From NCBI GenBank assembly GCA_016178625.1, contig JACOSX010000047.1, positions 1 through 59,122 of the forward strand: a stretch of 59,122 bases of DNA, written 5' to 3'. Shown one piece after another: positions 3,820-40,000 of this stretch. The first letter of the stretch is position 1; the number at the start of each line of letters is the position of its first letter. Position numbers and translations under genes: made by a program. The notes beneath the pieces were generated by a model. That model was not told the origin of the DNA, searched no databases, and was given only the letters and a program-made list of their open reading frames with translations. This stretch comes from Ignavibacteria bacterium (GTDB lineage Bacteria > Bacteroidota > Ignavibacteria > UBA10030 > SZUA-254).

Positions 3820-3873
3820 GTTTACTTCAACTACTCCACACTAATACACTCTCATTTTTTAAGGAAGCACACC

Positions 3874-5211
3874 GTGCGATCGGCACAATTTACATTGCGA
3901 GAGGTTATTGCACTTTTCCGCCGTCGGAAGAAGCTCCTCATCATCCCAAGTGTCATCATTACAATTCTCTGCGGGATAGGGGCATATCTTCTTCCCAATA
4001 AGTACGAATCGTCAACGACGATCCTTGTACAACGCGATGAGATTCTCAATCCGCTCATTAGCTATGAGATGGCGGTAACGATGGCCTCCGAGGATCGTCT
4101 ACGAACATTTAATGAAATCATCTACAGTCGGACAATCCTTCAGCAACTTATTGACAGCCTCGGGCTCGGAGCCAGTACAAGGACAGAAGCGCAGCGTCAA
4201 GCGCTTGTCGATGCGGTCGGACATAACATCACAACAGAGCGTCGAGGATCGGATTCTTTCCGCATCACGTATCTCGATTCGGATCCGGCACGTGCGCAAC
4301 GCGCCGCTGCGTTGATGGCAAACTTGTTCATCGGAACCACCCTTCATGTGGAGGGGCAGCGCAATGAACAAGCTGTACAGTTTTTTGAAAAGAAACTCGA
4401 AGAACTCAGACAAAAATTCGAAGTAAGCCAAAAAGAAGTTCTCTCCCTTTTGCAACAACGGATCAGTACAGCTCCGACAGAAAACCGGACACTCTATGTG
4501 CAGATAGAAAACATCGAAAAACAGATCAATGACATTGATTCCCGCCTTAAGGTATATCAGCTGGAGCTGGCGGTGTTGCGGAGGTTCCCTGACGCATTGC
4601 ACACTGAGGAAGGAAAACAATCGCTCTACGACCTGCAACGGGCAGAGATACCCTTCGCCGCTGACCTTCGGGGCTTATTAGCAAAGTATGATGATTTTCT
4701 TCGTCGGTACACACCAAAGTATCCTGAAGTCGAGAAACTTGAAAAACAAATGCTCAACCTTTTGGAGCGCATGCGCAACGCTGTTGAATCCGAACTTGCA
4801 AAACAGCAGCCTCAGCGCTGGGACCTCGAGAAACAACGCGCTCAACTGCTCGATGAGATCAAACAATCTTCAGTGAACCAACGCGTCGACGAGGACAAAG
4901 AATCGGATTACGGCATTTATCGAAAACTCTACGATGAGATGAAGGTGAAACTTGAGCAGGCCAGAACTTCTCGCGATCTCGGAAGTAAAGGGGCAAACCA
5001 ATTCATTATTATCGATCCGGCTTTGGTTCCTACAGTTCCTTCAAAACCACATCGATTGCAGATTGTTCTCGGAGGTTTGGGCCTTGGGTTGTTCATGGGG
5101 TTCCTGACAGTAATGCTGAAGGAACTCCTTGATACAACGATACGACTGCCACGAGACATAGAAGTCTATCAAAAACCAGTCATCGCATTCATCACTGACG
5201 GAGAAGAATGA
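3874..5211 (+). CDS. Wzz/polysaccharide co-polymerase (chain length determinant, GNVR-type)
   Basis: N-terminal TM, LLPNKYESSTTILVQRDEILNPLIS, coiled-coil, C-terminal PALVPTVPSKPHR then TM; GTG start with AAGGAAG upstream. Confidence 0.9.
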   Translation: MRSAQFTLREVIALFRRRKKLLIIPSVIITILCGIGAYLLPNKYESSTTILVQRDEILNPLISYEMAVTMASEDRLRTFNEIIYSRTILQQLIDSLGLGASTRTEAQRQALVDAVGHNITTERRGSDSFRITYLDSDPARAQRAAALMANLFIGTTLHVEGQRNEQAVQFFEKKLEELRQKFEVSQKEVLSLLQQRISTAPTENRTLYVQIENIEKQINDIDSRLKVYQLELAVLRRFPDALHTEEGKQSLYDLQRAEIPFAADLRGLLAKYDDFLRRYTPKYPEVEKLEKQMLNLLERMRNAVESELAKQQPQRWDLEKQRAQLLDEIKQSSVNQRVDEDKESDYGIYRKLYDEMKVKLEQARTSRDLGSKGANQFIIIDPALVPTVPSKPHRLQIVLGGLGLGLFMGFLTVMLKELLDTTIRLPRDIEVYQKPVIAFITDGEE

Positions 5212-15179: not shown

Positions 15180-16325
15180 ATGCAAGATAAAAAACTTACA
15201 AGAATCAAAGCACTGACACTATTGACCACAGGTGTGTTACGGGCGGAACCTCAGAAAGAAGAAGCAGACGAGTGTCCGCGCGCGTCGTTGTATGAACGCT
15301 CAATCAATACCGACATGCTTGATGAGCAAGCGCTTCAATCGGCGCCGGTTTGGCGACGGCTGATGTACAGATTCATCCCGCGCATTCCATCACAGGTGAT
15401 TGAAGCATTCTTCATCAGGAGGAAGTATGATGTCGTCATCTCGTGGTCCGATCCTCATGCTTTGCTTTTCGCATCATTACTCAAACTCACTCGCACGCGG
15501 AAACCACATGTTGCCCTGATGTTTTGGATTTCCAAACCAAAGAAAGCGGCAGTCTTGAAGAGAGTACATTCCCATATTGACACCATCGTTCTCTGGACTT
15601 CCGCGCACTATGAGTTTGCCGTCAACGAACTGGCGATACCTCCCTCGAAGATTAGGTTTATCCCTTACTACGTCGATCAGAAATTTTGGCGACCGATGAA
15701 CGTGCCTACTGATCAAATTTGTTCGGTAGGAATTGAGATGCGCGACTATCCAACCCTCCTTGAAGCGTTGCGGGGACTTGATATCAGGTGTCATATAGCA
15801 GCCGGTTCAGCGCGAGGGAAATTGTTTCCGACCGTGAAAGCGATCTACGAGAATGGACCGCTTCCACCAAACATCACCGCAGGAAAATTGGGACCGGTCG
15901 AACTCCGCGCACTCTACGCGCGATCGCGCTTTGTGGTTATTCCTCTCCTTCCCTCAGAATCAGACAATGGCTTGACTGTCATTCTCGAAGCCATGGCGAT
16001 GGGGAAAGCTGTGATTTGTTCACGAACCATCGGTCAACGGGACGTTATCCAGGAAGGGAAGACGGGTTTATTTGTCCCACAGGGTGATCCGATCGCTCTG
16101 CGCGACGCGATCACTTACCTGTGGAATAATCCAAAGATAGCAGAACAAATGGGCATGGAGGGACGGAAGCTCATAGAATCAAACAACACATGGGATCAGT
16201 TCGTCAACTCGATACAATCGATAGCGGAAGAAACAGTCACGGGGGAATGTGCAGAACGCACTCTATCTGACACTACCAGAAATTCAGTGAGGATTCATGC
16301 AACTCGTGCATCAATATATTCTTGA
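15180..16325 (+). CDS. Glycosyltransferase family 4
   Basis: IRFIPYYVDQKFW; PLLPSESDNGLTVILEAMAMGKAVICSRTIGQRDVIQEGKTGLFV. Confidence 0.88.
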   Translation: MQDKKLTRIKALTLLTTGVLRAEPQKEEADECPRASLYERSINTDMLDEQALQSAPVWRRLMYRFIPRIPSQVIEAFFIRRKYDVVISWSDPHALLFASLLKLTRTRKPHVALMFWISKPKKAAVLKRVHSHIDTIVLWTSAHYEFAVNELAIPPSKIRFIPYYVDQKFWRPMNVPTDQICSVGIEMRDYPTLLEALRGLDIRCHIAAGSARGKLFPTVKAIYENGPLPPNITAGKLGPVELRALYARSRFVVIPLLPSESDNGLTVILEAMAMGKAVICSRTIGQRDVIQEGKTGLFVPQGDPIALRDAITYLWNNPKIAEQMGMEGRKLIESNNTWDQFVNSIQSIAEETVTGECAERTLSDTTRNSVRIHATRASIYS

Positions 16326-17874
16326 ATCGGCGCGGCGGCATCCCGACAAGCCCGCGATCGTTTGCGACGGGAAGCAATACTCGTACGCAGAGCTTGTTAC
16401 AAAGATCAATGCCCTCGCTGATATGTTTGTCGTTGAAGGACTCCATAAAGGTGAGAGAGTTCTCATTCTGTTACGCGACAAGTTGGATTTCGTAACCGCA
16501 TGCTACGCGGTCATACGCGCTGGTGGCATTGCTGTCCCGCTCCCGGAATCGACGTCGCTCTCGACCGTTCAGCACATTGCGAAGAATTGCGACCCGACAA
16601 TGGTTCTCACTAGTAATAGCGACTTGAGGGATCTTCCGCTTCTGCGCGATAAGTTAAGTTGCAATTTCTTTTTCATGGAAGAAAACGCGCTCCCTTCCAT
16701 TAGACACACGTTCGTCACGAGCACATCATATGCTGGGGGATCTGCGGATGACATCGACCGCATTACCAAGCTGATGGATCTTCGACAAGACGATGGAGCG
16801 CTCATCCTCCACACCTCCGGCACCAGTGGTCAGAAAAAGGGCGTCTTGCTGACTCACCGTAACCTTATCCGGGAAACGGCAAACATCAACCAGTTCACAA
16901 AGAGTGATTCACATCTGCGCGAGTTTGTTGCCCTGCCACTCGAGCAGTCGTTCGGCTTTGGAAGGGTCCGTTGTGTCCACTTTATTGGAGGAACAATTGT
17001 TCTCCTCAACGGCCCACCGAACCCCATCAACGTTATCCAGAGCATCCTCATGAATCAGTGCAATGGTTTGTCGGCAGATCCAGCAACATTCTCTCTTTAT
17101 TTCGGACTTGTCGAAGACCTCCTGAGACGGATCGGTCCGCAGATGCGGCTCATCGAACTTGGAAATTCCCCCATGCCCTTGGTTCAAAAGAAGAAATTGT
17201 TGGAGACGTTCCCGAATGCCCGCATATGCATGCACTATGGTTTGACGGAAGCATCATCCAGCACCTCTATTGACTTCCCATCTGAGCGCAAGAGACTTGA
17301 CACTGCCGGACGACGGTCACCTCACGCTGAAATCACGATTTGTGACGACAGCGGCCAGCGCCTTGAGCGCGGGAAGGCTGGAGAAATTCTTGTGCGGGGA
17401 GACCATGTCACGCCGGGCTATTGGAACAACCCGGAGCTCACCAAACAAAGCTTTCTCGATGGACATTGGTTAAAGACCGGCGACATCGGTATCCTTGACA
17501 AGGATGGTTACCTTATTGTATTAGGAAGGAAAGACGAGATGATCAATGCCTCAGGCATAAGAATCTCTCCACTGGAGATCGAAGAAAAGATCCACGAGGC
17601 ATATCCCGAAAGTGAAATTTGCGTCGTGGGAATTCCGGATCCATCCGGTGCTGGAGGAGATATCCCTGTGCTCTGTTATATTCCACGAAATGGAAAAACA
17701 ATCATACCTTCCGAGCTTTCCTCGTTGCTCGCTAAACGTCTTGATCCCAACAAGATTCCTCGAATTGTATATCGCGTCGATCATTTTCCACAAATCGAGA
17801 ACAAGATCGCGCGGCATGAGCTGAGGAAAAGACTATTAGAAGGGATCCCTTATCCTGTCCGGCAACTGATGTAA
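16297..17874 (+). CDS. AMP-dependent synthetase/ligase (adenylate-forming)
   Basis: LILHTSGTSGQKKGVLLTHRNL; MHYGLTEAS; KTGDIGILDKDGYLIVLGRKDEMINASG. Confidence 0.95.
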   Translation: MQLVHQYILESARRHPDKPAIVCDGKQYSYAELVTKINALADMFVVEGLHKGERVLILLRDKLDFVTACYAVIRAGGIAVPLPESTSLSTVQHIAKNCDPTMVLTSNSDLRDLPLLRDKLSCNFFFMEENALPSIRHTFVTSTSYAGGSADDIDRITKLMDLRQDDGALILHTSGTSGQKKGVLLTHRNLIRETANINQFTKSDSHLREFVALPLEQSFGFGRVRCVHFIGGTIVLLNGPPNPINVIQSILMNQCNGLSADPATFSLYFGLVEDLLRRIGPQMRLIELGNSPMPLVQKKKLLETFPNARICMHYGLTEASSSTSIDFPSERKRLDTAGRRSPHAEITICDDSGQRLERGKAGEILVRGDHVTPGYWNNPELTKQSFLDGHWLKTGDIGILDKDGYLIVLGRKDEMINASGIRISPLEIEEKIHEAYPESEICVVGIPDPSGAGGDIPVLCYIPRNGKTIIPSELSSLLAKRLDPNKIPRIVYRVDHFPQIENKIARHELRKRLLEGIPYPVRQLM

Positions 17875-17932: not shown

Positions 17933-18841
17933 ATGATGATACACATGAACCACGATAAATCTCCGCGTACTACAGATGGGCAGACACACAGGAATTATAG
18001 TGATGCCATCGAGAAACAACAACACCTCGCTGACACTCATTTCCAATCCGCTGCAGTGTATTGGAAAGCTATTTATGAAGACCGAGACCTGCAGAGCCAG
18101 ATTTACCAGCAACGCCGAGAAGTCATTCTTGATATGATTGATGAGATTTCCCTGCCAACAAATGCACACATCCTGGAAGTTGGCTGTGGCGCGGGATATA
18201 CGACGGTTGAACTTGCGCGCCGGGGACATAGGATTGAAGCAATCGACACTGTTCCAGACATGCTGGAACTTACGCAAAACCTCGCTCTCGAACACCGAAT
18301 CTCAGACCGCGTAAAAACAAGCATTGGAGATACATACAACCTACATTTTCCTGACGACAGTTTCGACTTCGCCGTTGCCATGGGAGTCCTTCCTTGGCTC
18401 CAATCGCCCTTAAAGGCAATTCGTGAGATGCATCGGGTCTTGAAGCCCTCGGGCTTCATTATCATAACAGCCGATAATCGATGGCGATTGAACCATATTC
18501 TTGATCCATTCCTCAATCCTCTGTTGGTGCCATGGCGATCTCTCCTCGGAAAGACACTACGATCCCTTGGTTTGAAGAAGCCCGTCGGTGAGGGCGCTCA
18601 CGTCTATATGCATTCTACACGCCAGGTCGATGGATTTCTTCAAGCAACAGGGTTTGAGCGTATGAACGGCGTCACAGTCGGATTCGGGCCTTTTTCGTTC
18701 TTTGGGAAGGTAATCCTGCCAAATTCGGCCGGTGTCAAGCTGAACGAACAACTTCAGATTTTAGCGGATCGGGGCGTTCCCGGTTTGCGATTAACCGGTT
18801 CACATTACATCATTCTCGCGAAGAAACCGAGAACAGGCTGA
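17933..18841 (+). CDS. Class I SAM-dependent methyltransferase
   Basis: HILEVGCGAGYTTVELARRGHRIEAIDTVPDMLELT; GFIIITADNRWRLNHIL. Confidence 0.9.
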   Translation: MMIHMNHDKSPRTTDGQTHRNYSDAIEKQQHLADTHFQSAAVYWKAIYEDRDLQSQIYQQRREVILDMIDEISLPTNAHILEVGCGAGYTTVELARRGHRIEAIDTVPDMLELTQNLALEHRISDRVKTSIGDTYNLHFPDDSFDFAVAMGVLPWLQSPLKAIREMHRVLKPSGFIIITADNRWRLNHILDPFLNPLLVPWRSLLGKTLRSLGLKKPVGEGAHVYMHSTRQVDGFLQATGFERMNGVTVGFGPFSFFGKVILPNSAGVKLNEQLQILADRGVPGLRLTGSHYIILAKKPRTG

Positions 18842-18911: not shown

Positions 18912-19757
18912 ATGAAAAGACCAACAAGAAAAAAGAAATCAGGAAAACTTCATACTAGTGATTATCTCAAGAATATTGGAGTTCCGGAAATCACACCGGC
19001 GACAAGTCCCTTCGATCCGGGCTACGATCCTGTGACACTCGAAAGCCATCTTGAACAAAGCTCACATCTGATGTCCATTCTGAAGATCTCTATGGCGTGC
19101 TGGATGATCGCCAACGAAAAAGTCACTCGCCGAAAAATTGCCGCTGCAAAAAAATACAAAGTTCCGACTACCACAGGTGGAGGACCCTTTGAAGTGGCAG
19201 TGCAGCAGGGAAAGTTGTTGGAATACCTCGATCTCTGCGCCGACATGGGAGTCACCCGCATTGAGTGTGGCGAGGGGTTCACTGATATGACATTGAAACC
19301 ACGTGACGTGGTCACACTTGCGAATGAGAGAGGACTTGATGTTCAATTTGAGTTGGGGAAAAAACACGAAGGCGCTTTCACAAAGGACGCAGTCGAAGGA
19401 TTGATTGAGCAAGGACATCGATGGCTCGACGCGGGAGCTCTCCAACTTGTCGTTGAGGCACGGGAGAGTGCTAAGGGTGTCGGCTTGTTCGACGATCAAG
19501 GAAACTTTAACTGCACATTCGCCGATCGATTTGCGAAAGCCTTTGGTCACGAAATTGTGATGTTCGAAGCTCCAAACAAACCGAGTCAGTTTGCTCTTTT
19601 AGATTATTTCGGTCGGGAAGTACACCTGTGCAATGTCCGGCTTGAAGAAGTGCTACGAGTGGAAATCTATAGGCGCGGACTTCACTCAGATGCGTTCGAG
19701 AAAGAAAACCTTCGTCCGCGACTACCAGAACAATCCCGCACAACAGTGAAAGGTTGA
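18912..19757 (+). CDS. ComA-like (phosphosulfolactate synthase family) protein, divergent
   Basis: GGGPFEVAVQQGKLLEYLDLCADMGVTRIECGEGF; VQFELGKKHEG; LDAGALQLVVEARES; VMFEAPNKPSQFALLDYFGREVHLCNV; RRGLHSD. These follow the ComA block order. Confidence 0.8.
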   Translation: MKRPTRKKKSGKLHTSDYLKNIGVPEITPATSPFDPGYDPVTLESHLEQSSHLMSILKISMACWMIANEKVTRRKIAAAKKYKVPTTTGGGPFEVAVQQGKLLEYLDLCADMGVTRIECGEGFTDMTLKPRDVVTLANERGLDVQFELGKKHEGAFTKDAVEGLIEQGHRWLDAGALQLVVEARESAKGVGLFDDQGNFNCTFADRFAKAFGHEIVMFEAPNKPSQFALLDYFGREVHLCNVRLEEVLRVEIYRRGLHSDAFEKENLRPRLPEQSRTTVKG

Positions 19758-19769
19758 GGAGATCACACT

Positions 19770-20486
19770 ATGGACTGTAGGGTAGTCATCGATTGTTTCC
19801 CGGACAGTGTCCGACGATATAGAGAAGGATACGCGATTGTCGCCATTGATGTTATTCGCGCAACCACGACAGCGGTTACAGCAGTCGCAATGGGCAGAAG
19901 GTGTTTTCCTGTTCCATCGATCGAAATGGCAGTCCCACTCGCGGCGCGGCTGGATCATCCATTGCTTGTTGGCGAGCTCGGCGGCAATATGCCCTACGGC
20001 TTCGACATGAACAATAGTCCGGCAGAGATGGTGCACCGGAACGATCTGATGCGTCCGATGATTCTGTTGTCGTCATCCGGAACACAACTAATGCACAACG
20101 CGAAAGATTGCGACGCCGCCTACGTTGCCTGTTTCCGCAATCATGGCGCGATCGTCAATCATCTCAAGGATCGCCACCACAGAGTCGCCGTTATCGGCGC
20201 TGGGACGCGAGGAGAATTCCGTGAAGAAGACCAGATGTGCTGCGCATGGATTGCAGAGAGTCTCATGAAGGTAGGATTCAAACCCGAAGACGATCAGACT
20301 CTCGACGTCATCAAGAGGTGGAGCGGTGCGCCGGTTGAAGCGTGCGCAAGTGGCAAGAGTGCCGAGTATCTTCGCAAGAGTGGTCAGACAAAGGATCTCG
20401 ATTTTATTCTGACTCACATAAACGACCTCGATTCAGCGTTTATGTTCAAGCATGATGAAGTCGTGAGGATTCCGATTTCGGAGTAA
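19770..20486 (+). CDS. ComB-like (2-phosphosulfolactate phosphatase family)
   Basis: AIDVIRATTTAVTAVAMGRR; LLVGELGGNMPYGFDMNNSPAEM; SSSGTQLM; VAVIGAGTRGEFREEDQMCCAWI. Confidence 0.88.
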   Translation: MDCRVVIDCFPDSVRRYREGYAIVAIDVIRATTTAVTAVAMGRRCFPVPSIEMAVPLAARLDHPLLVGELGGNMPYGFDMNNSPAEMVHRNDLMRPMILLSSSGTQLMHNAKDCDAAYVACFRNHGAIVNHLKDRHHRVAVIGAGTRGEFREEDQMCCAWIAESLMKVGFKPEDDQTLDVIKRWSGAPVEACASGKSAEYLRKSGQTKDLDFILTHINDLDSAFMFKHDEVVRIPISE

Positions 20487-20603
20487 GGGACCGACCAACA
20501 CCTCGCTTGATGTCTGAACCGGGGAGCGTTCAAGGAAGAATCAAATCTTCGTTTTTACTGTCAAGAAAAAAATCTTTAGTACAATGTTAGAAGGAACATC
20601 GAC

Positions 20604-21344
20604 ATGGCTACCATCGCAAAACCAAAAACCGCAGAAATGAATCCCGGACCGGGCTTCCGGATTCGATCACAAATTTCACGGCCTGATCCGAAAGTTATTG
20701 TCGGACTTGGAGAATTTGATACGCCAGTGATTTCAGATCTCATGAATCGTTTATACACAATGAATCCGGCAATTCGAAATCTGACGTCACCAGACCTTAA
20801 GATCCTTGGACCAGCATGCACGGTCAAAGTGTACCCCGGGGACAACCTGATGGTCCACAAATCACTCGATGTTGCGAAACGCGGGGATATCATCGTTGTC
20901 GATGCGGCGGGATCGCGCATGAATGCAGTCCTCGGCGATCTCGTTTCCACAAAAGCGCGCCACCGAGGCATCTGTGGATTTGTTGTCGATGGGTTTATCC
21001 GCGACATCGAGGGGATCATGAAGCTGAATTTCCCCGTCTATGCACGCGGGGTCACTCCAATCGGACCTCTGCACAGGGGACCGGGAGAAATTAATTTCCC
21101 GATTCAATGTGGCGGGATCGTCGTCAACCCTGGCGACATCATCATCGGCGATATGAACGGCGTCATCGTCGTTCCTCAAGAGATCGCTCCTGATCTTCTT
21201 CTCCGATTACGAGAGCGCAAGGAAGCTGAAGCTGCATACCTCGCTGCTGTTCAACGCGGAGAGTTCTCCAATGCTTGGGTGGACAAATTGTTGGAAGAAG
21301 GTAAGTGTGAGATCATCGAAAACGGACAAAATGTTCAACACTGA
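20604..21344 (+). CDS. RraA-like family (HMG/CHA aldolase - oxaloacetate decarboxylase-like) protein
   Basis: DTPVISDLMNRLY; VDAAGSRMNAVLGDLVSTKARHRGICGFVVDGFIRDIEGI; GVVVNPGD-type IVVNPGDIIIGDMNGVIVVP. Confidence 0.9.
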   Translation: MATIAKPKTAEMNPGPGFRIRSQISRPDPKVIVGLGEFDTPVISDLMNRLYTMNPAIRNLTSPDLKILGPACTVKVYPGDNLMVHKSLDVAKRGDIIVVDAAGSRMNAVLGDLVSTKARHRGICGFVVDGFIRDIEGIMKLNFPVYARGVTPIGPLHRGPGEINFPIQCGGIVVNPGDIIIGDMNGVIVVPQEIAPDLLLRLRERKEAEAAYLAAVQRGEFSNAWVDKLLEEGKCEIIENGQNVQH

Positions 21345-22461
21345 GGCAAAAGAGACAACACGAAGTAGCGGACGGTTGCAGCGTTGGGCTATTCACGTCT
21401 GGCGGCTGGCGTACTACTTGAAATTCGTGTGGGACAAATTAGCAAATCGATGGGGAACGCTGGACGACCCCATGAGAACGAATTTCTACATCGACATGTG
21501 GCGAGCCGCTGCTCAAGAACTCTCGGTGAAGTTTACACAACTCCCCGATGGTTTTTGTGAAGCATCGGTGAACGGACGATCCACGCGCATGTACCAAAAT
21601 CTTATCATGCTGGATCACCCGGTGACAATGAAGCTCGCGCGGAATAAGCCGTTAGTCCTGAAGCTCCTCTCAGATCATGGGATTATGGTGCCGGAGTATT
21701 GTGAGTTTACCCTCCGGAACATCGCTCCGGCAATCGAATTCTTACACCATCATTCCCCATGCGTTGTGAAGCCAGCGCACGGAACTGCCGGCGGTGAGGG
21801 CGTGACGACCAACGTGCGGTCCATTCGCGAGCTCAAACGAGCAGCGATCTTCGCCTCATTATACGGACATACATTATTAATGGAGCGGCAGATTCCCGGA
21901 GAATCCTACCGACTGCTGTATCTCAATGGGGAGCTGATCGACGCTATTCGCCGAAGATCACCGAGGGTGATTGGTGACGGCACATCGACAATTCGCGAAC
22001 TGATTAAACGTGAAAACGAACGGCGCGCATATCTGAACGGTACTGAAGGACTTACGTGGCTCCGCGCCGATCTCGATTGTCGGGCAACGCTTCGAGCGGG
22101 TGGGCGTACGCTCAACACTGTGCCGAAGTCCGGCGAGGAAATCGTTGTCAAACAGGCTGCAAATGATAATTCTTCCAGAGAAAATGAATCGGTCCGTCAC
22201 CTGCTCTGCGACCAGTTAATTCGTGAAGGAGCACGTGCTGCAATGATCGTTGACGTAAGACTTGCTGGTGTCGATCTGATCACAACTGATCCTCGGCGAC
22301 CACTGAAGGAAAGCGGCGGTGTCATCAATGAAGTAAATACAACCCCCGGGCTACATTATCATTACCAAGTGAGCGATAAAGCACATCTGGTTCCCGTGCT
22401 CGTTCCGATCTTGCGGCATCTGTTGGAACTTGACGTTCATCAACAAGTAAATTCATACTGA
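21331..22461 (+). CDS. ATP-grasp ligase resembling the cyanophycin synthetase/GshF-type catalytic domain
   Basis: VVKPAHGTAGGEGVTT; RLLYLNGELIDAIRRRSPRVIGDGTSTIRELI; GGVINEVNTTPGLHYHY. Start taken at ATG 21331. Confidence 0.85.
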   Translation: MFNTEAKETTRSSGRLQRWAIHVWRLAYYLKFVWDKLANRWGTLDDPMRTNFYIDMWRAAAQELSVKFTQLPDGFCEASVNGRSTRMYQNLIMLDHPVTMKLARNKPLVLKLLSDHGIMVPEYCEFTLRNIAPAIEFLHHHSPCVVKPAHGTAGGEGVTTNVRSIRELKRAAIFASLYGHTLLMERQIPGESYRLLYLNGELIDAIRRRSPRVIGDGTSTIRELIKRENERRAYLNGTEGLTWLRADLDCRATLRAGGRTLNTVPKSGEEIVVKQAANDNSSRENESVRHLLCDQLIREGARAAMIVDVRLAGVDLITTDPRRPLKESGGVINEVNTTPGLHYHYQVSDKAHLVPVLVPILRHLLELDVHQQVNSY

Positions 22462-22472
22462 ACGAATAGCAA

Positions 22473-23768
22473 GTGAACCAGCAACCGACAATATCTCCTT
22501 CTCTTCCACCTGCCATCCTTATTGGTGGCGGAGCGATCGCGCTCTCAGTTGCGCGATGCCTCGGACGACAGGGAATCACCGTGTACGCTTTGGACGGTCC
22601 ATCATCGGAAGCGCGGTATTCGAAATACTGCACGTGGATTCCGCTCCCGTACAACGCTGGAAATATCTTCAACAATGGGAATACCCAACACCTCTGGGAA
22701 AATTGGCTGTTGGGCGAAGCGACGCGAATCCATAAGGGAGCCGTCGTGCTGCCCTGTTCTGACGAAGGTCTTGAACTGATCATCAACCATCGAGCAACAC
22801 TTGAGAAACATTACAAAGTGATTGAAGCAAACGACGATGTGATTCGCTCGATGTTAGACAAAGCACTCACGTATGAGCTCGCTCAGAAGTTGAACGTCCC
22901 GGCACCGCGAATATGGCAAGTCGACACACAGGCAGATCTGCTAAAGCATCTGGATGAATTTCGATACCCATGCGCGCTAAAACCCCGTTCATCCCATGAT
23001 TTCGTCAAGCATTTTCCATCGCTGAAGATGTTCATCGTCGATTCGTCAGAGGAATTGATTCGGGTATTTGCCGATGTCCAACAGTACAATCTACAAATGA
23101 TTGTGACAGAACTTATTCCCCAAAGTCCGGAAGGGTATTGGAGCTATTACAGTTATCTCGATGAAGCTGGTACTCCGTTGTTCCATTTCACGAAACGGAA
23201 ACTGCGTCAATACCCAAATACCTTCGGCCTTGGAACGTATCATGTCACCGATTGGAATGCGGAAGTCGCAGAGGCGGGTTTGAGATTTTTCAAGGCAATT
23301 GGCCTTCGCGGCGTCGGCAACGTTGAGTTCATGCGAGACCCACGCGATGGTCAACTCAAGCTGATCGAATGTAACGCCCGCTTCACACTCACCACAGAGC
23401 TTGTCGCCTCGAGCGGGATTGACATCGCGTCGATCGCATACAACAGGTTGACCGGGCGAGCAATTCCACGAGTCGATTCTTATCGCACCGGTCTGTACAC
23501 CATTCGACCGACGAGTGATTTTCTTGCATTCTTGGAGATGAGACGCCGAGGCGAACTGACATTCCTTGAGTGGGTGAAGAGTATTTCGCATCGTCAGCAG
23601 CTTCTCATTTTCCACTGGAGCGATCCAGTGCCGGCACTAGCTCGAAGCAGACCATTTTTCTCGAGGCAAATCAGGAAACTCATCGGAGCGCTTCCCTTTA
23701 CCCAACGGACGGTCGGCGCTGACGTAAAGACTGTTTCCCGATCAACCGTGAAAGGCGGCTCGTTGTAA
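22473..23768 (+). CDS. ATP-grasp carboxylate-amine ligase-like protein (GTG start)
   Basis: AILIGGGAIALSVARCLGRQGITVYALDG; CALKPRSSHDF; VGNVEFMRDPRDGQLKLIECNARF. Confidence 0.85.
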   Translation: MNQQPTISPSLPPAILIGGGAIALSVARCLGRQGITVYALDGPSSEARYSKYCTWIPLPYNAGNIFNNGNTQHLWENWLLGEATRIHKGAVVLPCSDEGLELIINHRATLEKHYKVIEANDDVIRSMLDKALTYELAQKLNVPAPRIWQVDTQADLLKHLDEFRYPCALKPRSSHDFVKHFPSLKMFIVDSSEELIRVFADVQQYNLQMIVTELIPQSPEGYWSYYSYLDEAGTPLFHFTKRKLRQYPNTFGLGTYHVTDWNAEVAEAGLRFFKAIGLRGVGNVEFMRDPRDGQLKLIECNARFTLTTELVASSGIDIASIAYNRLTGRAIPRVDSYRTGLYTIRPTSDFLAFLEMRRRGELTFLEWVKSISHRQQLLIFHWSDPVPALARSRPFFSRQIRKLIGALPFTQRTVGADVKTVSRSTVKGGSL

Positions 23769-23770
23769 GA

Positions 23771-24850
23771 ATGATAACGATCTCCAAAGATGAACTCGAG
23801 CTGTTCGCGACGGATTTGTTGCTCGCCGCGAAGTCCTCGCGGGAAGATGCCGAGCTCGTCGCCCATTCGCTGGTATGGGCAGATCTGCGCGGTCGACAAC
23901 CACAGGGCGTTTTTCGCATCCCCGTGCTGGTAACGATGATCCACCATGGTTTGATTACTTCTCCAACTGAAATGAATTGGTCTAAGCGTTCCGAAGTCAT
24001 GTATCATCTCGACGCGGGAAATGGATTTGGTCAGGTCGCGGGTTATCGGGCGATGCAAAAAGCAATTGACATCGCCAAGAAAATCGGCATCGGCATGGTA
24101 ACAGTGAATAGGAGCAACCACTTTGGCGCCGCTTCATACTTCTGCGCGCTGGCAGCAGATGCACAGTGTGTAGGACTGACCTTCACTAATGCTACACCTA
24201 AAGTGGCGCCATTCGGCGGAACCAAGCCGATCCTTGGAACAAATCCGGTTGCCTTCGGGTGTCCGACATCTTCCGGTGTTCCGATCCTCGTTGATTTCTC
24301 AACGTCATCGATAGCAGGCTCGACCATCAGAACAATTACCGAAGGTGGCGGTCGATTGCCCAAAGGTGTCGCTCTCGATGCATCCGGACAACCAACAACC
24401 GATCCTGCAGCACTTTCATCAGGTTGCTTGTTACCTGCTGCGGGTGCAAAAGGGTATGGTCTTGGTCTTATGATCGAAATCTTCTGCGGTATCCTCGCAG
24501 GCGCAGGCATGAGCCATGAAGTTGGTCCGTTCTACTCTACATGGAAACGACCCGTCAATTCAGGTCACATGATGATGGCGATCGACATCAGCCGACTTCA
24601 GCCGTTGGATATGTATTTTGATCGACTGGATCAACTCATCAAGGAAATCAAGAGTTCGCCTACGCTGGAACATGTCGACGAAGTCTTGATCCCCGGTGAG
24701 GTTCGTGGAAGATTCGCGGATCAATTTTCTCGCGAAGGGATTCCGCTCAACGACGAGACGATCCATGGATTGGAAAATCTCGCTCGTTCTCTCGCGGTCG
24801 AAGTACCTTGGAAACAGGCAGCGCCGGTCAGCGTTCACGATAAACAGTAG
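23771..24850 (+). CDS. Malate/L-lactate dehydrogenase family 2 (Ldh2; same family as ComC sulfolactate dehydrogenase)
   Basis: VNRSNHFGAASYFCALAA; PFGGTKPILGTNPVAFGCP; LPAAGAKGYGLGLMIEIFCGILAGA. Confidence 0.88.
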   Translation: MITISKDELELFATDLLLAAKSSREDAELVAHSLVWADLRGRQPQGVFRIPVLVTMIHHGLITSPTEMNWSKRSEVMYHLDAGNGFGQVAGYRAMQKAIDIAKKIGIGMVTVNRSNHFGAASYFCALAADAQCVGLTFTNATPKVAPFGGTKPILGTNPVAFGCPTSSGVPILVDFSTSSIAGSTIRTITEGGGRLPKGVALDASGQPTTDPAALSSGCLLPAAGAKGYGLGLMIEIFCGILAGAGMSHEVGPFYSTWKRPVNSGHMMMAIDISRLQPLDMYFDRLDQLIKEIKSSPTLEHVDEVLIPGEVRGRFADQFSREGIPLNDETIHGLENLARSLAVEVPWKQAAPVSVHDKQ

Positions 24851-24900: not shown

Positions 24901-25890
24901 ATGAGCCGTACAATGTTCAGCTTCGATCCTGCTCAATGTGCCGGGCAGTTCGCGGCAGAAGGGTATGTCCATATCCCTCATGGTGTGACAAAGGAATTCT
25001 ATGCTAAGATGGCGAAGCAGGTGGACGAATACATGAAAACCAAACTCCTGAAAGAATTCGCGATCGGCGACAAGCAGCAAGCGCGGTACGAATTCCCCGA
25101 AGATGCAGATTACGTGAATGAACTTTTTGGTGCCGTTGGTAGGGTGTGTGGCTTGGATCCTAAAGAGCTGGTGCTTTCCGAGCGTCATATCAAGGGATAT
25201 GAAGCAAACGCAGACCCGGAACCGCATGCTCACAAGGATCGATTCGCTTCTCAAATTTCAGTGGGGATTTCCGTTCACGTACGAGAAGGATCTACACTGG
25301 TGCTCTATCCGTATGATGACACGGCGGTCAATCCGTTCAACGCGTCAACATTGTTGAGGGCAAGCCTTTCTCCCGATCGTTATCCGGAACCGACACTGAA
25401 ACGCGCGCGTCGAGTAGAAATAAATGATGCAGCGGGAGATGTCATCATATTCCGTGGACATCAGTTCTGGCATTTACGAGCGAATCCCGCCCTCACGACA
25501 ATGCTCTATCTTAAGCTGAACGCCTTCAACTGCGATCCTCTAGGAGAAGATCCAAAGACGGAGGAATACAAAAAGCGTACACAAGTGGCGGTGAGTATGA
25601 ACGATCACCAGCTTGAGAACATGGTTCCGATGATCGGTCGGCGCGTGGATTACTTCCATCGACACTATAATAGAGACTGGGTGGAGGTCCTTGGAGTCGT
25701 GCTGTGGGGAGAGAAACACTTCACGGTGGATGGAGATGAATTCTCCGCTCTCCAACAGATGGATGGCAAGCGCACAGTCCGGTCGGTGGTGCAATCTATG
25801 AACGGCAATGTTAACCGCGCCGAGATGCTCAAGAAGTTCCGTCGCCTTGCAACACGCGGCGTGATCGATCTCGTCGCTCCATTAGATTAA
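24901..25890 (+). CDS. 2OG-Fe(II) oxygenase/phytanoyl-CoA hydroxylase-like protein with a C-terminal winged-helix/PqqD-like segment
   Basis: Candidate HxD (PHAHKDRF) and distal His (RGHQFWHLR); C-terminal FSALQQMDGKRTVRSVVQSMNGNVNRAEMLKKFRRLATRGVIDLV. Confidence 0.55.
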   Translation: MSRTMFSFDPAQCAGQFAAEGYVHIPHGVTKEFYAKMAKQVDEYMKTKLLKEFAIGDKQQARYEFPEDADYVNELFGAVGRVCGLDPKELVLSERHIKGYEANADPEPHAHKDRFASQISVGISVHVREGSTLVLYPYDDTAVNPFNASTLLRASLSPDRYPEPTLKRARRVEINDAAGDVIIFRGHQFWHLRANPALTTMLYLKLNAFNCDPLGEDPKTEEYKKRTQVAVSMNDHQLENMVPMIGRRVDYFHRHYNRDWVEVLGVVLWGEKHFTVDGDEFSALQQMDGKRTVRSVVQSMNGNVNRAEMLKKFRRLATRGVIDLVAPLD

Positions 25891-25913: not shown

Positions 25914-28625
25914 ATGAATTTACTTACGATATCAATATCCCTCAACGTGTGGTTATCTCACGTTGCCGAGATAGGTCGGTCGGTAGTTGCTTCGTTGGTC
26001 GGTTATATCCAAGCAAGCACGATAGCGTTGAAGAAATCTCCCTCAACGCACTGGCGACCGTCACACTTGCATGTTGAGGAGATCCGACACATAGACGATG
26101 TGGCAAGGCTTGAGCCAGTGTGGAACAATCTCCTTGACCAACATGAGCGACCGATAATTTTCTTAACCTACGAATGGTTCATCGCCTGGTGGAAATGCCT
26201 CGGCGGTAACGGCAAAGAGCTTCTCATATTGGTTGTCAAGGATGAAGATGAGATTCTGGGAATCGCCCCGTTCATGGAAGTACACGAAACATTTTTTGGA
26301 TTGCCGATAACAAAAATCGAATTTATCTCGACAATGAAGTATGCAGACGCTCCGGCGAATTGCTCAGCCACGCTCGACATGATTATCGGCAAGAGACACG
26401 CTGAAGTTGTTTCGGCGGTGATCAATCACCTGGCACATCACCATCGGCGATGGGACTTCCTGCGGTTCAATCCGCTGAATGAACATTCTCTCACACCTTC
26501 ATTGATTGAACGCGAAGCTCTACGACACGGCTACAGGTTTAACAAGCACCCTGTGTTTGCCAATGCCTACATTTACGTGACAGCAGACTGGAATCACTAT
26601 CGTCTGCAGGTTTCAGCCCGCGCGCGCAAAGCACTTGCCGCGTATGATCGAAAGTTGCGAGAGCTTGGCGTGGTTACGTACGAAGAATTCAGGACTGTGG
26701 AAGAGATTGAGAATCGATTCAACGACTTGTTATCGATCGAACAACGGAGTTGGAAATGGGACGTCGGCGTGAGCATCAATTCGGTCGTATTCAGAGATTT
26801 CTATCAAGTCTTCGCGGAAGACGCAAGCAGAAAAGGACTGCTCCGTCTTTGGATGCTCAAGGTGAACGACAAATATATCGCATACGATTACAGTGCCGTA
26901 TTCAAGGGATATCTTGTTTCCCTCAAGACAAGTTACGATGAGGCGTATCGCAAATACAATCCCGGCAATCTTTTAACGTGGCACGAGTTCGAATATTTCA
27001 TCAACGGAGGGATCAAACGGATCAATTTATTGTGGGGCGATGTCAAGGCGAAAGAACGCTGGTTGACTGAGCTCGAATCGCACTACGAGGTGTTCGTTTT
27101 CAATACGAGTGTGTACTCAAGATTCCTTCGCATGCTTTTCTTCTCATTGTCGTTCTATCGGATTCGGAGAATTATCATTGATTATAGAAACAGAATTGCC
27201 AGAAAAGCGGGACTGAGACTCACAGAATCCGAATTGACACGCTCGGATCAGGTAAAGCACCGGGGAGTGAAGATTCAATCGATAAACCAAGACGCTCAGA
27301 TTGCCACAACGATGACTTCGATGAATACCACCAAGATACATACAGAGATAAAAAAACAGGACACGACCGTTCCGGTCGTTGTCCTGAAATCGTTCCATCA
27401 TCTTGGACTGGGAGTTGTCCGCAGCCTTGGACGACTCGGTATCCCAGTGTATGGAATTGATCCGAACCCACTGGCACCCGGTCTCCATTCTCGTTATTGT
27501 CGCGAGAGATTCATCTGGGATGTTGACAATGCCTCCCAAGAATCAACTGTGAATTTTCTTTTGGACGTTGGGAAAAAACTTGGCAAGCGATCCATCCTCA
27601 TCAACACGGCTGACGAAACTGCCCTTCTCCGTGCCGAATATGCTAACGTATTGAGCGAATGGTACATCTTCCCACGGTTATCACCCACGCTCATCCAGTC
27701 TCTCACGAGTAAGAAAGAGATGTATTATCTCGCGAAAGAGCATTGCGTCCCAACTGCCGAAACGGCGTTCCCCCGAACACGAGACGACGTGCTACAGTAT
27801 CTTGACCATGTAGCCTTTCCCGTGATGCTCAAGGGAATCGACGGTCAACTTCTAGAGAAAAGAGCCGGCAAGAAAATGGTCATCATCAAGAACAAGAAAG
27901 ATCTCCTCGATCATTACGATAGAATGGAAGATCCGGAACATCCCAATCTGATGTTACAGGAATATCTCCCCGGCGGCGATGATACGGTCTGGATGTTCAA
28001 CGGATATTTCAATGAGAACTCTGATTGCCTTTTCGCGATCACAGGGAAGAAAATACGACAGGCACCAGTGTATACCGGTTACACATCGCTTGGGATTTGT
28101 CTACCGAACCCGACCGTAGAACAAATGACAAAAGACTTCATGAAAAAAATCGGTTATAGAGGAATCCTCGACATCGGCTATCGATACGACGCTCGGGATG
28201 GGAAATACAAAGTTCTCGACATCAATCCTCGGATTGGGGCGACATTCCGCCTCTTCGTTGCGGAGAATGGAATGGATGTCGCTCGCGCTAAGTATCTCGA
28301 TCTCACCGGACAAACAGTTCCTCACTCTTCAATGCGCGAAGGACGCAAATGGTTCGTGGAAGATCGGGATATTGTCTCAAGCATACGGTATTTCAGGGAC
28401 AAGAATTTAACCGTGCGACAGTGGCTGAAATCGTTCCGCGGTGTACAAGAGGCTGCCTGGTTCGCACCGGATGACGTTTTTCCCTTTCTCCTCATGTGCT
28501 GGGAACTCATCCGAAAGTTGTTTAAACGATCAGTCCGCTTCCCACTCGCGCATTTTTTCTCCCTGACCGCTACCTGGATGCAGAGAACCGATCATGTGAA
28601 TAATGGATTTTCAGACACTATGTGA
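25914..28625 (+). CDS. Fusion protein: N-terminal BioF2/GNAT-type acyltransferase + C-terminal ATP-grasp ligase
   Basis: N-term LEPVWNNLLDQHERPIIFLTYEWFIAWWKCLG (paralogous to 13753 and 28635 ORFs); C-term VPVVVLKSFHHLGLGVVRSLGRLGIPVYGID...VMLKGIDGQL...LDINPRIGATFRLF (paralogous to 22473 ORF). Confidence 0.85.
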   Translation: MNLLTISISLNVWLSHVAEIGRSVVASLVGYIQASTIALKKSPSTHWRPSHLHVEEIRHIDDVARLEPVWNNLLDQHERPIIFLTYEWFIAWWKCLGGNGKELLILVVKDEDEILGIAPFMEVHETFFGLPITKIEFISTMKYADAPANCSATLDMIIGKRHAEVVSAVINHLAHHHRRWDFLRFNPLNEHSLTPSLIEREALRHGYRFNKHPVFANAYIYVTADWNHYRLQVSARARKALAAYDRKLRELGVVTYEEFRTVEEIENRFNDLLSIEQRSWKWDVGVSINSVVFRDFYQVFAEDASRKGLLRLWMLKVNDKYIAYDYSAVFKGYLVSLKTSYDEAYRKYNPGNLLTWHEFEYFINGGIKRINLLWGDVKAKERWLTELESHYEVFVFNTSVYSRFLRMLFFSLSFYRIRRIIIDYRNRIARKAGLRLTESELTRSDQVKHRGVKIQSINQDAQIATTMTSMNTTKIHTEIKKQDTTVPVVVLKSFHHLGLGVVRSLGRLGIPVYGIDPNPLAPGLHSRYCRERFIWDVDNASQESTVNFLLDVGKKLGKRSILINTADETALLRAEYANVLSEWYIFPRLSPTLIQSLTSKKEMYYLAKEHCVPTAETAFPRTRDDVLQYLDHVAFPVMLKGIDGQLLEKRAGKKMVIIKNKKDLLDHYDRMEDPEHPNLMLQEYLPGGDDTVWMFNGYFNENSDCLFAITGKKIRQAPVYTGYTSLGICLPNPTVEQMTKDFMKKIGYRGILDIGYRYDARDGKYKVLDINPRIGATFRLFVAENGMDVARAKYLDLTGQTVPHSSMREGRKWFVEDRDIVSSIRYFRDKNLTVRQWLKSFRGVQEAAWFAPDDVFPFLLMCWELIRKLFKRSVRFPLAHFFSLTATWMQRTDHVNNGFSDTM

Positions 28626-34048: not shown

Positions 34049-37000
34049 ATGAATATCCGTTCGTTCACAGTTGAGTGTTTAAAGAGATTTCGAGGTGATG
34101 GTGTTATGAAAGCTACAAGCACGTTGTGTATGATCTTGTCGTTGTTCCAGATAGGGTTCGGTCAAACTCCAACCTATCAGCTCATCCTGAAGAACGATTC
34201 GCTCATCAATAGTACGGCGTATGAGTTCGACATCTACCTGCAACGGACAGGCGTCACAGCACTTGAGCTGGCAACGTTACAACCAATTCTCACATTCAAT
34301 ACGGGAATCTCATCAGGAACGCTATCATTCACGATCAATGCAGGTTCATCACAGCTCAATGCTTCCCAACAACCGACAGATGCGAAGTTATCAATCAACG
34401 GCGACGAATTACAAATCCAACCAAATCTTCCACCGGGAGCCGGCAGCGGGACGGTGATTCCGATCGCTCCGGGTCTGCGTGTTGGAAGATTTAGAGTGAG
34501 CAGCACGGTTCCGTTCGAAAATCAGCCAGCCAATATTGCCTGGAAGAATTCCGGCGCAAATCCAATCACGAAAATAAATGCTTATGTCGGAGGGTCGAAT
34601 ACTCCAATAACCGATACTACCGGTCACACGAACCTTCTCGCGAACGGCACGCTCTCACCTCTGACGGTCACCACCAATTCACCGCTCCCGAGTGCGACGG
34701 CAGGAACTGCATATGCTGAAACACTCATGGCAACCGGAGGATCACCGCCATATTCCTGGTCGATCACTACTGGCTCGCTTCCTACTGGATTAACTCTCGC
34801 TTCAACAGGCATTATCAGCGGTACGACCACAACCGCCGGCAATTTTGGGGTCACTATCCAAGCGACTGACGCTGCATCGGGAACTGCGAGTAGAGCATTC
34901 ACACTCACGGTTATTGCCGGGGCAGCAGCAGAACTCTCGCTTATTCAACAGCCAACAAGTACGACCGCAGGCGCCACAATTTCGCCTGCAGTGACCGCGC
35001 AGTTGAGGGACGCCTTTGGCAATAACGTTGCAACCTCGGGCGTTGCAGTGGCGATCGCCATCGCATCAGGCACTGGTGTGCTCAGCGGAACCTTATCCCA
35101 GTTGACCAGTGGGAGCGGCTTGGCCACCTTCAATGATCTCAGCATAAACCTTGTGGGTACAAAGACATTAACTGTATCAAGCGGTGGTCTCACTCCTGAT
35201 ACCAGCAACATCTTCACAATTTCAGCGGGCACAGCGAATCATGTAGTATTTATCCAGCAACCGACAGATGCCGGATCTGGCGTTGCTATCAGTCCAGCTA
35301 TTACGGTTCAACTCAAGGATGCTTTCGGTAATAACGTGACAACTTCCGGTATCACGGTCTCTATGTCGCTCTCGAGCGGAACCGGAACTCTCTCAGGCAC
35401 AAAAAACCAAAACACGAACACGAGCGGTATCGCATTGTTCAATGATTTGAGCATTGATCTCGCTGGTCCAAAAACTCTTACTGCATCAAGTGGCTCATTA
35501 ACTCCAGCGGCAAGTAACGCATTTACCATAACTCCGGGTTCGGCGACTCATCTTGTCTTTACTCAGCAACCGTCGAACACTGTTGCGGGAGTTGCCATCG
35601 CCCCGGCGATCACGGTACAGTTGCGAGATGCAGCGGAAAATGATGTGCCAACTTCCGGGATCGGCATCACCATGTCTCTCGCCAGCGGCACGGGAACGCT
35701 GAGCGGTAGTACACTGCAAGTGACAGACGCTTTAGGGAAGGCAACCTATAATGACCTGAGCATTAATCTTGTTGGCACAAAGACATTGAGCGCCGTTGGA
35801 GGCAGGTTCTTATTCGTTGTGAGTAATTCCTTCACGATTTCTACCGCAGCGGCGAGTAAATTAGTTTTCGTACAACAGCCGACCAACGGTGTCGCGGGAG
35901 CCGTGATCAGCCCACCGATAACAGTACAATTAAATGATAGCCTTGGTAATACCGTGGCAACAGCCGGCGTTTCCGTTTCAATGGCACTCTCGGCAGGTTC
36001 GGGGAGTCTCGGCGGCACGATTCCACAACTTACAAACGGTTCCGGTCTTGCGACATTCAGTGATCTTGTCATCAACCAACCAGGCGCGAAAGTGGTAAGG
36101 GCATCAAGCGGAGCGTTAACTCCCGCGACAAGCAATTCCTTCACACTGACAATGGATACGATTATTGCCTCCGCAGGGCCAAACGGATCAATCGCCCCAT
36201 CGGGAACCGTCACTCTTCTGTTCAATGCGAATCAGACATTTACAATCAGTCCTAATGCTGGTTATCATATTCAAGATGTTCTTGTCGATGGTAGTTCTGT
36301 GGGTGCCGTCGGATCGTACTCATTCACAAACGTCACTTCCAATCACTCGATCAGTGCGAGCTTCTCTATCGACACACTGACGATTACGGCAAGCGCTGGA
36401 GCGAATGGATCTGTTATTCCTTCTGGCGCCGTGAAGGTGCCTTATGATGGTAGCAAGTCGTTTACGATCACCCCGACCACAGGATATCATGTGTCGGATG
36501 TGCTTGTTGATGGCAGCTCCGTCGGGGCTGTGACCTCCTTCTTGTTCACGAATGTTGTTACGGACCACACCATCTCGGCAAGCTTCGCGATCGATACGCT
36601 GACGATTACGGCGACATCAGGGGGAAATGGAACCATCTCACCCGCCGGGAATGTACGGGTACTGTATGGCGCAAGCCAATCGTTCACGATCACCCCATCT
36701 CTTGGTTACCATATCTCAGACGTAGTCGTCGATGGCGGGTCAGTTGGACCTGTGTCATCATACACCTTTACGAATGTAACGACAAATCACACGATCACTG
36801 CGAGCTTCACAATTATTGGATATACGATAACTGCCACTGCCGGTGCAAATGGTACAATCTCGCCATCAGGGGCAGTAGCGGCAAATTTTGGCTCGAGCCA
36901 GACATTTACCATTGCAGCAAATACGGGATACCACATCGCAAACGTGCTTGTTGATGGGAATTCTGTTGGCGCCGTATCATCTTACACCTTTACAAATATC

Positions 37001-40000
37001 CAAGCAAACCATACGATTACAGCAAGCTTCGCTCCAAATAGTTTATCAATCACCGTTCAGACATCTCCTCCCGGTCTGACAATGATCGTCGATGGAGTTA
37101 CCTTGTCCAGTCCGCAGTCGTTTACCTGGACGGCAGCCACAAATCATACGATTGCCGTTGTTGATACCCAGAGTGGGGGCGTAAGCACACGCTACCTGTG
37201 GAACAACTGGAGCGACAACGGCGCAAAGTCGCATACCGTAACTCCGCTCACAGATAGTGTCTTCAGTGCGAACTTCACGACCCAGTATTTCCTAACAATG
37301 AGTTCCAATCCCGGTGGCACTGCACTTCCACCGAGCAACTGGTTCAACAAGGGACAGATCGTCACGATCATCGGCGTTCCAGATAGCAAGTATAATTTCA
37401 GTGTGTGGAGTGGAACAGGAAACGGTTCGACGAATTCAACAAGCGACACAGCAACTGTCACAATGAACGGACCCATTTCAGAAATCGCGAACTTCGTCCG
37501 CAAACCTGTTCAAATTACCATCCAAGCAAATCCTCCAGGAAGAACCTTCGTGTACGACGGTGCACCCTATACGGTTCCCCAGACGAGAACAGTCGTTCCC
37601 GGCGAATCACATTCAGTCGATATCTTCAATCTGACACAAAGTGACACGATGCCTGGAAGGCAATTCGTGTGGAAGAACTGGAGCGATGGCGGCCCGAAAT
37701 TCCATACGATCTCTCCTGATTCGAATACGACATACATCGCGAACTTCGGGTCACAATTCTTACTGACGGTCGTAGCGGGACCGAACGGAACGGTAACCCC
37801 ACCAAGTGACTCCCAGGATAGCGCGAAGGTTGTTGCGATGATGGCAACACCAAACACCGGCTATCACTTCAGCGTATGGAAAGGAAAAGGGACCGGCTCG
37901 TACACAGGCACAAATAATCCTGCGAACGTCACAATGGGTGGACCGATCAACGACACAGCCAGCTTTGCAATTGATACGTTGATCATTGCTGCAACGAGTG
38001 GCGCCAATGGATCGATCTCACCGGCCGGCGATGTGAAGGTGACATACGGTAGCAGTCAGACGTTCACGATCACACCGGCTGCGACGTATCATATATCGGA
38101 TGTGGTTGTTGACGGCAACTCGGTGGGAGCTGTTACTTCTTACACCTTCACCAACGTAACGGCCAACCATACAATCACGGCAAGCTTTACAATCAACGGA
38201 TATACCATTACTGCGAGCGCAGGCGCTAATGGGACAATCTCACCATCCGGACCGGTCGCGGTAACAGCAGGATCGAATCAACTGTTCACGATGACACCAA
38301 ATAACGGCTACCACGTCGACAGTGTTCTGGTCGATGGAGTCAATCAGGGTCCTCTCGCACAATACACATTCACCAACATCACTGCAAACCATACGATTCG
38401 GGCAATCTTTGCACCGAATGGACTTTCAGTTATCGTCCAGACGAATCCGGCCGGGTTACAAATCACAGTTGACGGATCGATGTTCGTCAGTCCGCAAACG
38501 TTCAACTGGCTCGCTGGGTCAAGTCACACAATTGCAGCGCCCGATTCACAAGCCGCAGGAGGGAAGAAACGATATCTCTGGCTCAACTGGAGCGATGGTG
38601 GAGCGAAATCACACACTGTTTCATCCCTTAAGGATACGACATTCACTGCTACCTTCACAACGCAGTATTTCTTGACCATGACCGCAGGCGTAGGGGGTTC
38701 GGTCACTCCATCCAGCGATTGGCATGATGCCGGACAAATCGTTCCAATCAACGCAATACCATCGACAGGTTACAGATTCACTGGATGGACTGGGACAGGA
38801 TCAGGTTCCTTCACGGGATCGAGTGCATCTGCCAGTGTTACCATGAATGATTCCGTTATAGAGTCCGCTACTTTCGGTTTGATTCCAATTCAAGTTACAG
38901 TCACGTCAAATCCATCGGGCAGATCGTTCACTGTGGACGGCAACCGGTATACAACGACACAGACTTTCACATGGAATTACGGTGAGACGCACTCGCTCGC
39001 AACGGCGGATTCCCAGTCAAATGGTGGAACTCGCTTTCTGTTCCTTAACTGGAGCGACGGTGGCTTGATGTCTCATTCCGTAATGCCAATCAGCGACACA
39101 GTGTTCTCGGTGAATTTCAAAACCCAATACTTGTTAACGATGAATTCAGAAAGCGGTGGAACAGTGCTTCCATCGAGTAACTGGCAGGATAGCGGTAGGG
39201 TTGTTTCCATCTCCGCCCAAGCCGATCCGGGCTATGCGTTCAACGGCTGGACGGGAACCGGAGCGGGCTCGTTTACGGGAATTACCAATCCGACTAACAT
39301 CACCATGCTTGCCCCGATCACTGAAACGGCATCATTCACCCGGTTTGGTGTTTCTGTGACCCTGCAGACGAACCCATCAGGACTTTCAATTATTGTGGAC
39401 AGCATCTCGTACGTGAGCCCTCAGACGTTCAGTTGGGTGACCGGTTCAAGCCATACTATCTCGACCACTTCACCTCAGAGCGGTGGAACGGGAACCAGAT
39501 ATGTGTGGAATTCGTGGAGCGATAACGGAACAATGTCCCATGTCGTTGTTCCTCTCAAGGATTCTACGATCACGGCAAACTTCACAACACAGTACTATCT
39601 CACGATGATTGCCAATCCAGGCGGCTCGGTAACTCCGACAAGCACCTGGTACAACAGTGGACAGAGTGTCACCATCACCGGCTTCCCGACCACCGACTAC
39701 GTCTTCAATGTATGGAGCGGAAGTGGGAACGGTTCATACACCGGCAACAATAATCCTGCAACGGTGTTCATGAATGGCCCGATCACTGAAGTGGGAAACT
39801 TCAGACGGGACCAAGTTCAAATCGTCTTACAATCAAATCCTCCCGGGCGTCCGTTTTCTTACGATGGCGCCACGTATACGACCACCCAAACTCGCTTCGT
39901 GGATCCGGGGACAGAACATTTTTTGAACGTTGCGTCTCCCCAGCCTGTCGGGCCGGGAATGCAGTATGTGTTTAATAACTGGAGTGATGGCGGTGCACAG

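Follow-up and report, generated by a model that had tools for sequence, protein, structure and literature searches.

Enzymes of the ComA family are known from the coenzyme M route of methanogens (ComA-ComB-ComC-ComDE), from the coenzyme M cluster of Xanthobacter (XcbB1) and from Bacillus spores, in which the proposed product of the YitD system is free sulfolactate. Here, we analyze a stretch of 59,122 nucleotides from an Ignavibacteria bacterium (contig JACOSX010000047.1; hereafter the window), in which a ComA-family and a ComB-family gene lie within a polysaccharide operon. Across genomes this pair travels with an ATP-grasp ligase domain that we call GRASP3, and we refer to the set as module A. 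The explanation that we favour, giving it roughly an even chance as a whole, is that the operon holds two cassettes, in one of which (module A) a 3-substituted lactate would be made and then amide-linked by the ATP-grasp enzyme to a polysaccharide building block.

With the methanogen route, the window system has in common the ComA and ComB families and the core ComA residues. It differs in that no ComDE was detected in the genome, the Ldh2-family protein is without His44 and belongs to a different cassette, ComA and ComB form separate subfamilies, and the later steps give way to an ATP-grasp partner. XcbB1 is also a ComA-family enzyme in a bacterium; however, it is ~32% identical to the window ComA, keeps the canonical residues, and has fumarate lyases and an ACC-deaminase-like protein as partners, unlike the window cassette. 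YitD, from the same family, keeps the canonical T48, T76, S105 and R244, unlike the window ComA; its proposed sulfolactate product is a likeness with our proposal, and we know of no ATP-grasp or polysaccharide link in the Bacillus system. On the ligase side, the N-acetylglutaminylglutamine synthetases (TIGR03103) share the fusion architecture of GNAT and ATP-grasp domains, whereas GRASP3 comes from another ATP-grasp family and has a polysaccharide context. The C-terminal domain of Cj1438, from the capsule locus of Campylobacter jejuni, is an amide-forming ATP-grasp (PMC11800379). The likeness is that of an ATP-grasp amide ligase encoded among polysaccharide genes and fused with a further polysaccharide enzyme; however, the Cj1438 domain is TupA-like and acts on a sugar carboxylate, whereas GRASP3 is PurK/CPSase-like and the acid is the predicted decoration. 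The window system is not the coenzyme M pathway, the Xanthobacter cluster or the described capsule amide ligase.

A ligase accompanies ComA and ComB across genomes

Module A, and the domain fused to its ligase, are laid out in the window as follows:

17933-18841, + strand: UbiE/Methyltransf_11-type S-adenosylmethionine-dependent methyltransferase, a frequent member of module A (Pfam Methyltransf_11, 81 bits)
18912-19757, + strand: ComA-family enzyme of a distinct subfamily (Pfam ComA PF02679, 160 bits, E-value 9e-47, cut-off 25.2)
19770-20486, + strand: ComB-family phosphatase of a matching subfamily (Pfam 2-ph_phosp PF04029, 127 bits, E-value 6e-37)
25914-27350, + strand: FemAB/BcsL-like GNAT domain, fused to GRASP3 (PF13480, 73 bits)
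27351-28625, + strand: GRASP3 ATP-grasp ligase domain, the C-terminal half of the fusion open reading frame (ORF) 25914-28625

A preliminary description of this DNA, made from the sequence alone, had named the ORFs at 18912 and 19770 ComA-like and ComB-like, and the Pfam scores bear this out. Its interval, 18912-24850, excluded the methyltransferase and GRASP3, the parts that matter most, and it overlooked the constant partner of ComA and ComB, the ATP-grasp ligase, which supplies the proposed attachment step.

Loci were gathered with the window ComA alone, scanning one genome per species. We recovered 69 ComA loci, 56-82% identical to the window ComA, in records that carry the labels of a dozen phyla. 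The window proteins were then mapped onto these loci, whose genes were called as the longest ORF; many loci come from metagenome-assembled genomes on short contigs, and three records labelled as archaeal (L008, L011 and L044) may be mis-binned. Where 3.5 kb or more of sequence follows comA, ComB was present at 54/54 loci and GRASP3 at 52/54. The association with the ligase spans at least ten bacterial phyla. ComB adjoins comA in relatives, so that the linkage of the pair put forward in the preliminary description is indeed conserved. The GRASP3 homologue is 48-63% identical at most ComA loci, and GRASP3 differs from both ATP-grasps located between ComB and Ldh2 in the window. Of the 50 loci in which comA is flanked on either side by 2.5 kb or more, 21 have a homologue of the methyltransferase. 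A set of 100 related genomes gave 8 strong GRASP3 matches (at least 43% identity), every one of them in a genome that also has ComA, as 9 of the genomes do (Fisher p = 5e-11, uncorrected for phylogeny).

GRASP3 is found in several fusions: in the window and L006 its partner is a FemAB-like GNAT domain, in L068 a methyltransferase, and in L045, probably in L065 too, a polysaccharide deacetylase. L045 and L065 also have ORFs that look like fusions of ComB with GRASP3; these were discarded, as the coordinates place ComB in a different frame, and only the GRASP3-deacetylase part is likely a real fusion. In L015 and L076 the reading of comB is broken across two frames, possibly by a frameshift or a sequencing error. 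A B12-binding radical SAM (S-adenosylmethionine) protein is encoded in or beside the cassette at two loci (L038:10807-12192 and L053:13175-14554).

Fold of the ligase

By sequence, GRASP3 gave only weak ATP-grasp matches in PDB, and for this reason folds were compared. Its AlphaFold2 model (predicted local distance difference test, pLDDT, 88) matched the folds of PurK, biotin carboxylase, L-amino acid ligase and PylC using Foldseek (3orq, 1ulz, 3vot and 4ffr), and the nucleotide and metal residues are conserved (D290-x-N292-P-R, K161 and E204). As modelled, GRASP3 is an ATP-grasp of the carboxylate-activating, amide-ligase type.

Polysaccharide context

As the preliminary description had it, the ORFs at 18912, 19770 and 23771 (ComA, ComB and Ldh2 families) all lie on the + strand in one co-directional operon with Wzx, Wzy and glycosyltransferase genes. 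The operon includes Wzx (~9470), GT4 glycosyltransferases, a hexapeptide acyltransferase, a deacetylase, GNAT/FemAB-like proteins and a GT2 glycosyltransferase, with Wzy-, Wzc- and ATPase-like ORFs upstream, assigned by reading. Downstream of the operon, 34049-44467 encodes a repetitive surface protein of 3472 amino acids, whose C-terminal tail resembles a type IX secretion sorting domain.

The association with polysaccharide genes that had been suggested for the window is seen as an enrichment at other ComA loci. Using a protein panel, with self-matches dropped, we found a polysaccharide gene within 10 kb at 29/38 well-flanked ComA loci, against 3/27 control stretches located elsewhere in these genomes (Fisher p = 1.4e-7); the odds ratio is only approximate, because the control contigs were arbitrarily picked and the panel was partly drawn from the loci. 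The other 9 of the 38 loci had no panel polysaccharide gene within 10 kb, and some, such as L051 and L068, sit beside housekeeping genes. Such loci would be expected if module A made a small diffusible amide, an osmolyte or a signal comparable to N-acetylglutaminylglutamine amide, with its proximity to polysaccharide genes coincidental, and the GNAT and ATP-grasp architecture does recall TIGR03103. We regard this as unlikely, given the strong enrichment near polysaccharide genes and the fusions of GRASP3 with deacetylase and FemAB domains.

Two cassettes in one operon

Between ComB and the FemAB-GRASP3 fusion lie the five genes of a second set, module B, with an acyl ligase upstream of both modules:

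16297-17874, + strand: AMP-dependent acyl ligase, upstream (PF00501, 206 bits)
20604-21344, + strand: RraA-like protein, module B (PF03737, 159 bits)
21331-22461, + strand: ATP-grasp 1, cyanophycin/N-acetylglutaminylglutamine synthetase-like, module B (profile match; orthologues in genomes G004 and G036)
22473-23768, + strand: ATP-grasp 2, a GRASP3 paralogue, module B (profile match; orthologues in G004 and G036)
23771-24850, + strand: Ldh2-family protein without His44, module B (Pfam Ldh_2 PF02615, 356 bits, E-value 2e-106)
24901-25890, + strand: oxygenase-like protein with a PqqD-like tail, module B (conserved HKD...WHLR motif)

The interleaved RraA-like and ATP-grasp genes were correctly noted beforehand. 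The ATP-grasp-like ORFs are 21271-22461 and 22473-23768; the first of these opens at 21271, with the ATG at 21331 as the likelier start. ATP-grasp 1 scores 142 bits to TIGR03103, and ATP-grasp 2 is ~27% identical to GRASP3. The oxygenase-like protein matched no Pfam family above its cut-off, and no fold was assigned from its AlphaFold2 model (pLDDT 32); its motif is kept in three genomes.

We found module B, and no ComA, in the related genomes G004 and G036. In G004, which belongs to the family of the window genome, the order is AMP-ligase, rraA, ATP-grasp 1, ATP-grasp 2, ldh2, oxygenase-like gene, an uncharacterised ORF and two FemAB genes; the AMP-ligase directly abuts rraA (3109-4659 then 4634-5413 in L130), and the FemAB orthologue has no GRASP3 domain. 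G036 has the identical five-gene set. Identities to the window orthologues are 74-77% for rraA (which stands there without comA or comB), 45-56% for ATP-grasp 1, 49-53% for ATP-grasp 2 and 53-55% for Ldh2. Conversely, a third relative, G012, has the methyltransferase, ComA, ComB and FemAB-GRASP3, the fusion gene following directly on ComB without the genes of module B. Since G004 and G036 carry only B, G012 only A and the window both, the modules vary independently, and Ldh2 belongs to B. In our favoured explanation, to which as a whole we give about even odds, a single Wzx/Wzy polysaccharide locus combines two decoration cassettes that were inherited separately, and module B is a pathway of its own that does not supply a ComC for the product of module A.

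These results bear on the model of the preliminary description, in which sulfolactate or sulfopyruvate for the polysaccharide is made by the successive action of ComA, ComB and a ComC-like Ldh2. All three families do occur in one operon, and the 23771 ORF does belong to the Ldh2 family; its assignment as ComC did not hold. It scores 252 bits to NF040650, below the cut-off of 500. His44 and His116 (AllD numbering) are reported to be invariant in the Ldh2 family (PMC3527362); in the window protein PQG replaces SHG, so that His44 is lost to Gln, while His116 is kept. His44 is Gln also in the G004 and G036 orthologues (3/3 module B proteins), and His116 is Leu in two of the three. Moreover, at the 38 other ComA loci flanked on each side by 5 kb or more, neither Ldh2 nor RraA was found. 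We therefore reject the triad on the distribution of Ldh2 and the genomes with module B only; the Ldh2 as ComC is not credible, and the serial model as a whole is highly improbable. The remark that no ComDE-like decarboxylase is present extends from the window to its genome (G000): the draft, ~97% complete, gave no TIGR03845 match, and no onward route to coenzyme M was detected.

ComA and ComB subfamilies

The window genome has a single ComA; in addition to the window ComB it encodes another at a different site, which is canonical (240 bits). The window ComA scores 161.6 bits and does not pass the cut-off (280) of the archaeal ComA equivalog TIGR03849; the best NCBIfam ComB score of the window ComB, 85.9 bits, is also below its cut-off of 235. 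In a quick tree the window-type ComAs form a separate clade of 68 rows (SH-aLRT 100) on a long branch. This clade keeps K43, E79, E103, E133, K137, R170 and E205 (MJ numbering), which we take to be the phosphoenolpyruvate (PEP), metal and acid core. It carries clade-wide changes, T48C, T76G, S105G, Q211S, N224H/R and R244H, at positions kept in MJ ComA and nearly all kept in YitD and XcbB1 (L125). ComB keeps the active-site motifs D27, R30, GE, N82-S83-P84, G104-T105 and D154; specific to its clade are three gained invariant arginines (R123, R147 and R151) and TTNGT changed to SSSGT.

Judging from the residues, the substitutions in ComA and ComB are compatible with an enzyme that still uses sulfite but has been retuned, and also with one whose nucleophile has changed. 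If the latter, the ComA-like enzyme would add a nucleophile other than sulfite to PEP, and the decoration would be a PEP-derived 2-hydroxy acid without sulfonate. The clade-wide ComA changes around a preserved presumed core, the matching ComB changes and the long branch all point this way; the divergence may however reflect merely a change of partner or kinetics, and to our knowledge all characterised ComA enzymes use sulfite. We hold this alternative as tentative. Similarly, it is possible, though we would not lean on it, that the ComA-ComB-ATP-grasp cassette, often with a methyltransferase, is widespread and horizontally spread, that the decoration it puts on polysaccharides is the amide of a hitherto unknown 2-hydroxy acid derived from PEP, and that its ComA uses a nucleophile other than sulfite.

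In one Ignavibacteriales family, a divergent ComA branch (L004/L005; L077 and L078, from G047 and G027) has His or Gln at K137 and Leu at K209; its activity may be changed or lost. In a sample of 299 genomes from across the phylum of the window, 77 have a ComA homologue over the Pfam cut-off (including L095-L124), nearly all at ~250-315 bits, far above the window ComA. Outside the window clade, a plasmid of Legionella lytica (L129) has a coding sequence of ~970 amino acids with ComA at its C-terminal end, beside an aminotransferase and ComB.

Proposed pathway

From the computed family memberships, tight linkage, modularity, polysaccharide context and ligase fold, we infer the following reactions, substrates and attachment site for module A. 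The ComA-like enzyme would join PEP and a nucleophile to 2-phospho-3-X-lactate, which the ComB-like enzyme would dephosphorylate to a 3-substituted lactic acid, most simply (R)-3-sulfolactate. GRASP3 would convert the carboxylate of this acid to an acyl phosphate and then to an amide with an amine, most likely that of an amino sugar in a polysaccharide precursor; the fusion of GRASP3 with a deacetylase suggests a sugar amine as the acceptor. The methyltransferase may cap a hydroxyl. Since ComA and ComB travel with a putative amide-forming ligase, their probable role is the synthesis of an unusual acid for attachment to the coat.

Several points weigh against this pathway. Sulfite is a presumed nucleophile of ComA, and the coordinated, subfamily-wide substitutions in ComA and ComB, at positions otherwise conserved in the characterised enzymes, make sulfolactate an uncertain identity for the acid. 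An amide, rather than an ester, a thioester or the product of another ATP-grasp reaction, is read from the modelled fold only. To these are added the 9/38 loci described above and the divergent ComA branch without K137, which in the two genomes examined had no ComB homologue within 19 kb.

Variable neighbours of the cassette

A LarA-superfamily gene lies beside the cassette at 12 loci (L007, L018, L026, L041, L050, L051, L054, L057, L058, L060, L073 and L074); no LarA was detected in the window genome. The two members tested fall below every NCBIfam LarA cut-off, and in our own reading of the alignment the second catalytic-histidine position is apparently Q/N. LarC is not enriched (10/12 LarA-type genomes vs 19/28 others), and two complete Zixibacteria chromosomes with the LarA-like gene have no LarC. 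At six loci (L023, L025, L030, L031, L032 and L035), in records labelled Proteobacteria (Bradyrhizobium, Beijerinckiaceae and others), an enolase-superfamily gene, galactonate-dehydratase-like but below cut-off, is directly 3' of the ATP-grasp; L032 comes from a cultivated bacterium, Bradyrhizobium elkanii WSM2783. The non-overlap of the two gene types is not significant (p ~0.2), and that they could be alternative 2-hydroxyacid isomerases is a lead only.

Significance

We found no account of ComA in polysaccharide loci, nor of a ComA-ComB-ligase cassette, in the open full-text literature, subscription papers aside; within that literature the cassette appears to be undescribed, and it is built from known enzyme families. 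Its core of three genes is small enough for direct in vitro work. If our proposal is true, members of this clade that are automatically annotated as "phosphosulfolactate synthase" are not to be taken for coenzyme M genes, and the cassette would give genetic access to polysaccharides that are sulfonated or modified in other ways with acid amides. Enzymes of coenzyme M and spore sulfolactate synthesis would then have been recruited for the decoration of surface polysaccharides in soil and groundwater bacteria, including Acidobacteria, Nitrospira, Bradyrhizobium, Ignavibacteria and others.

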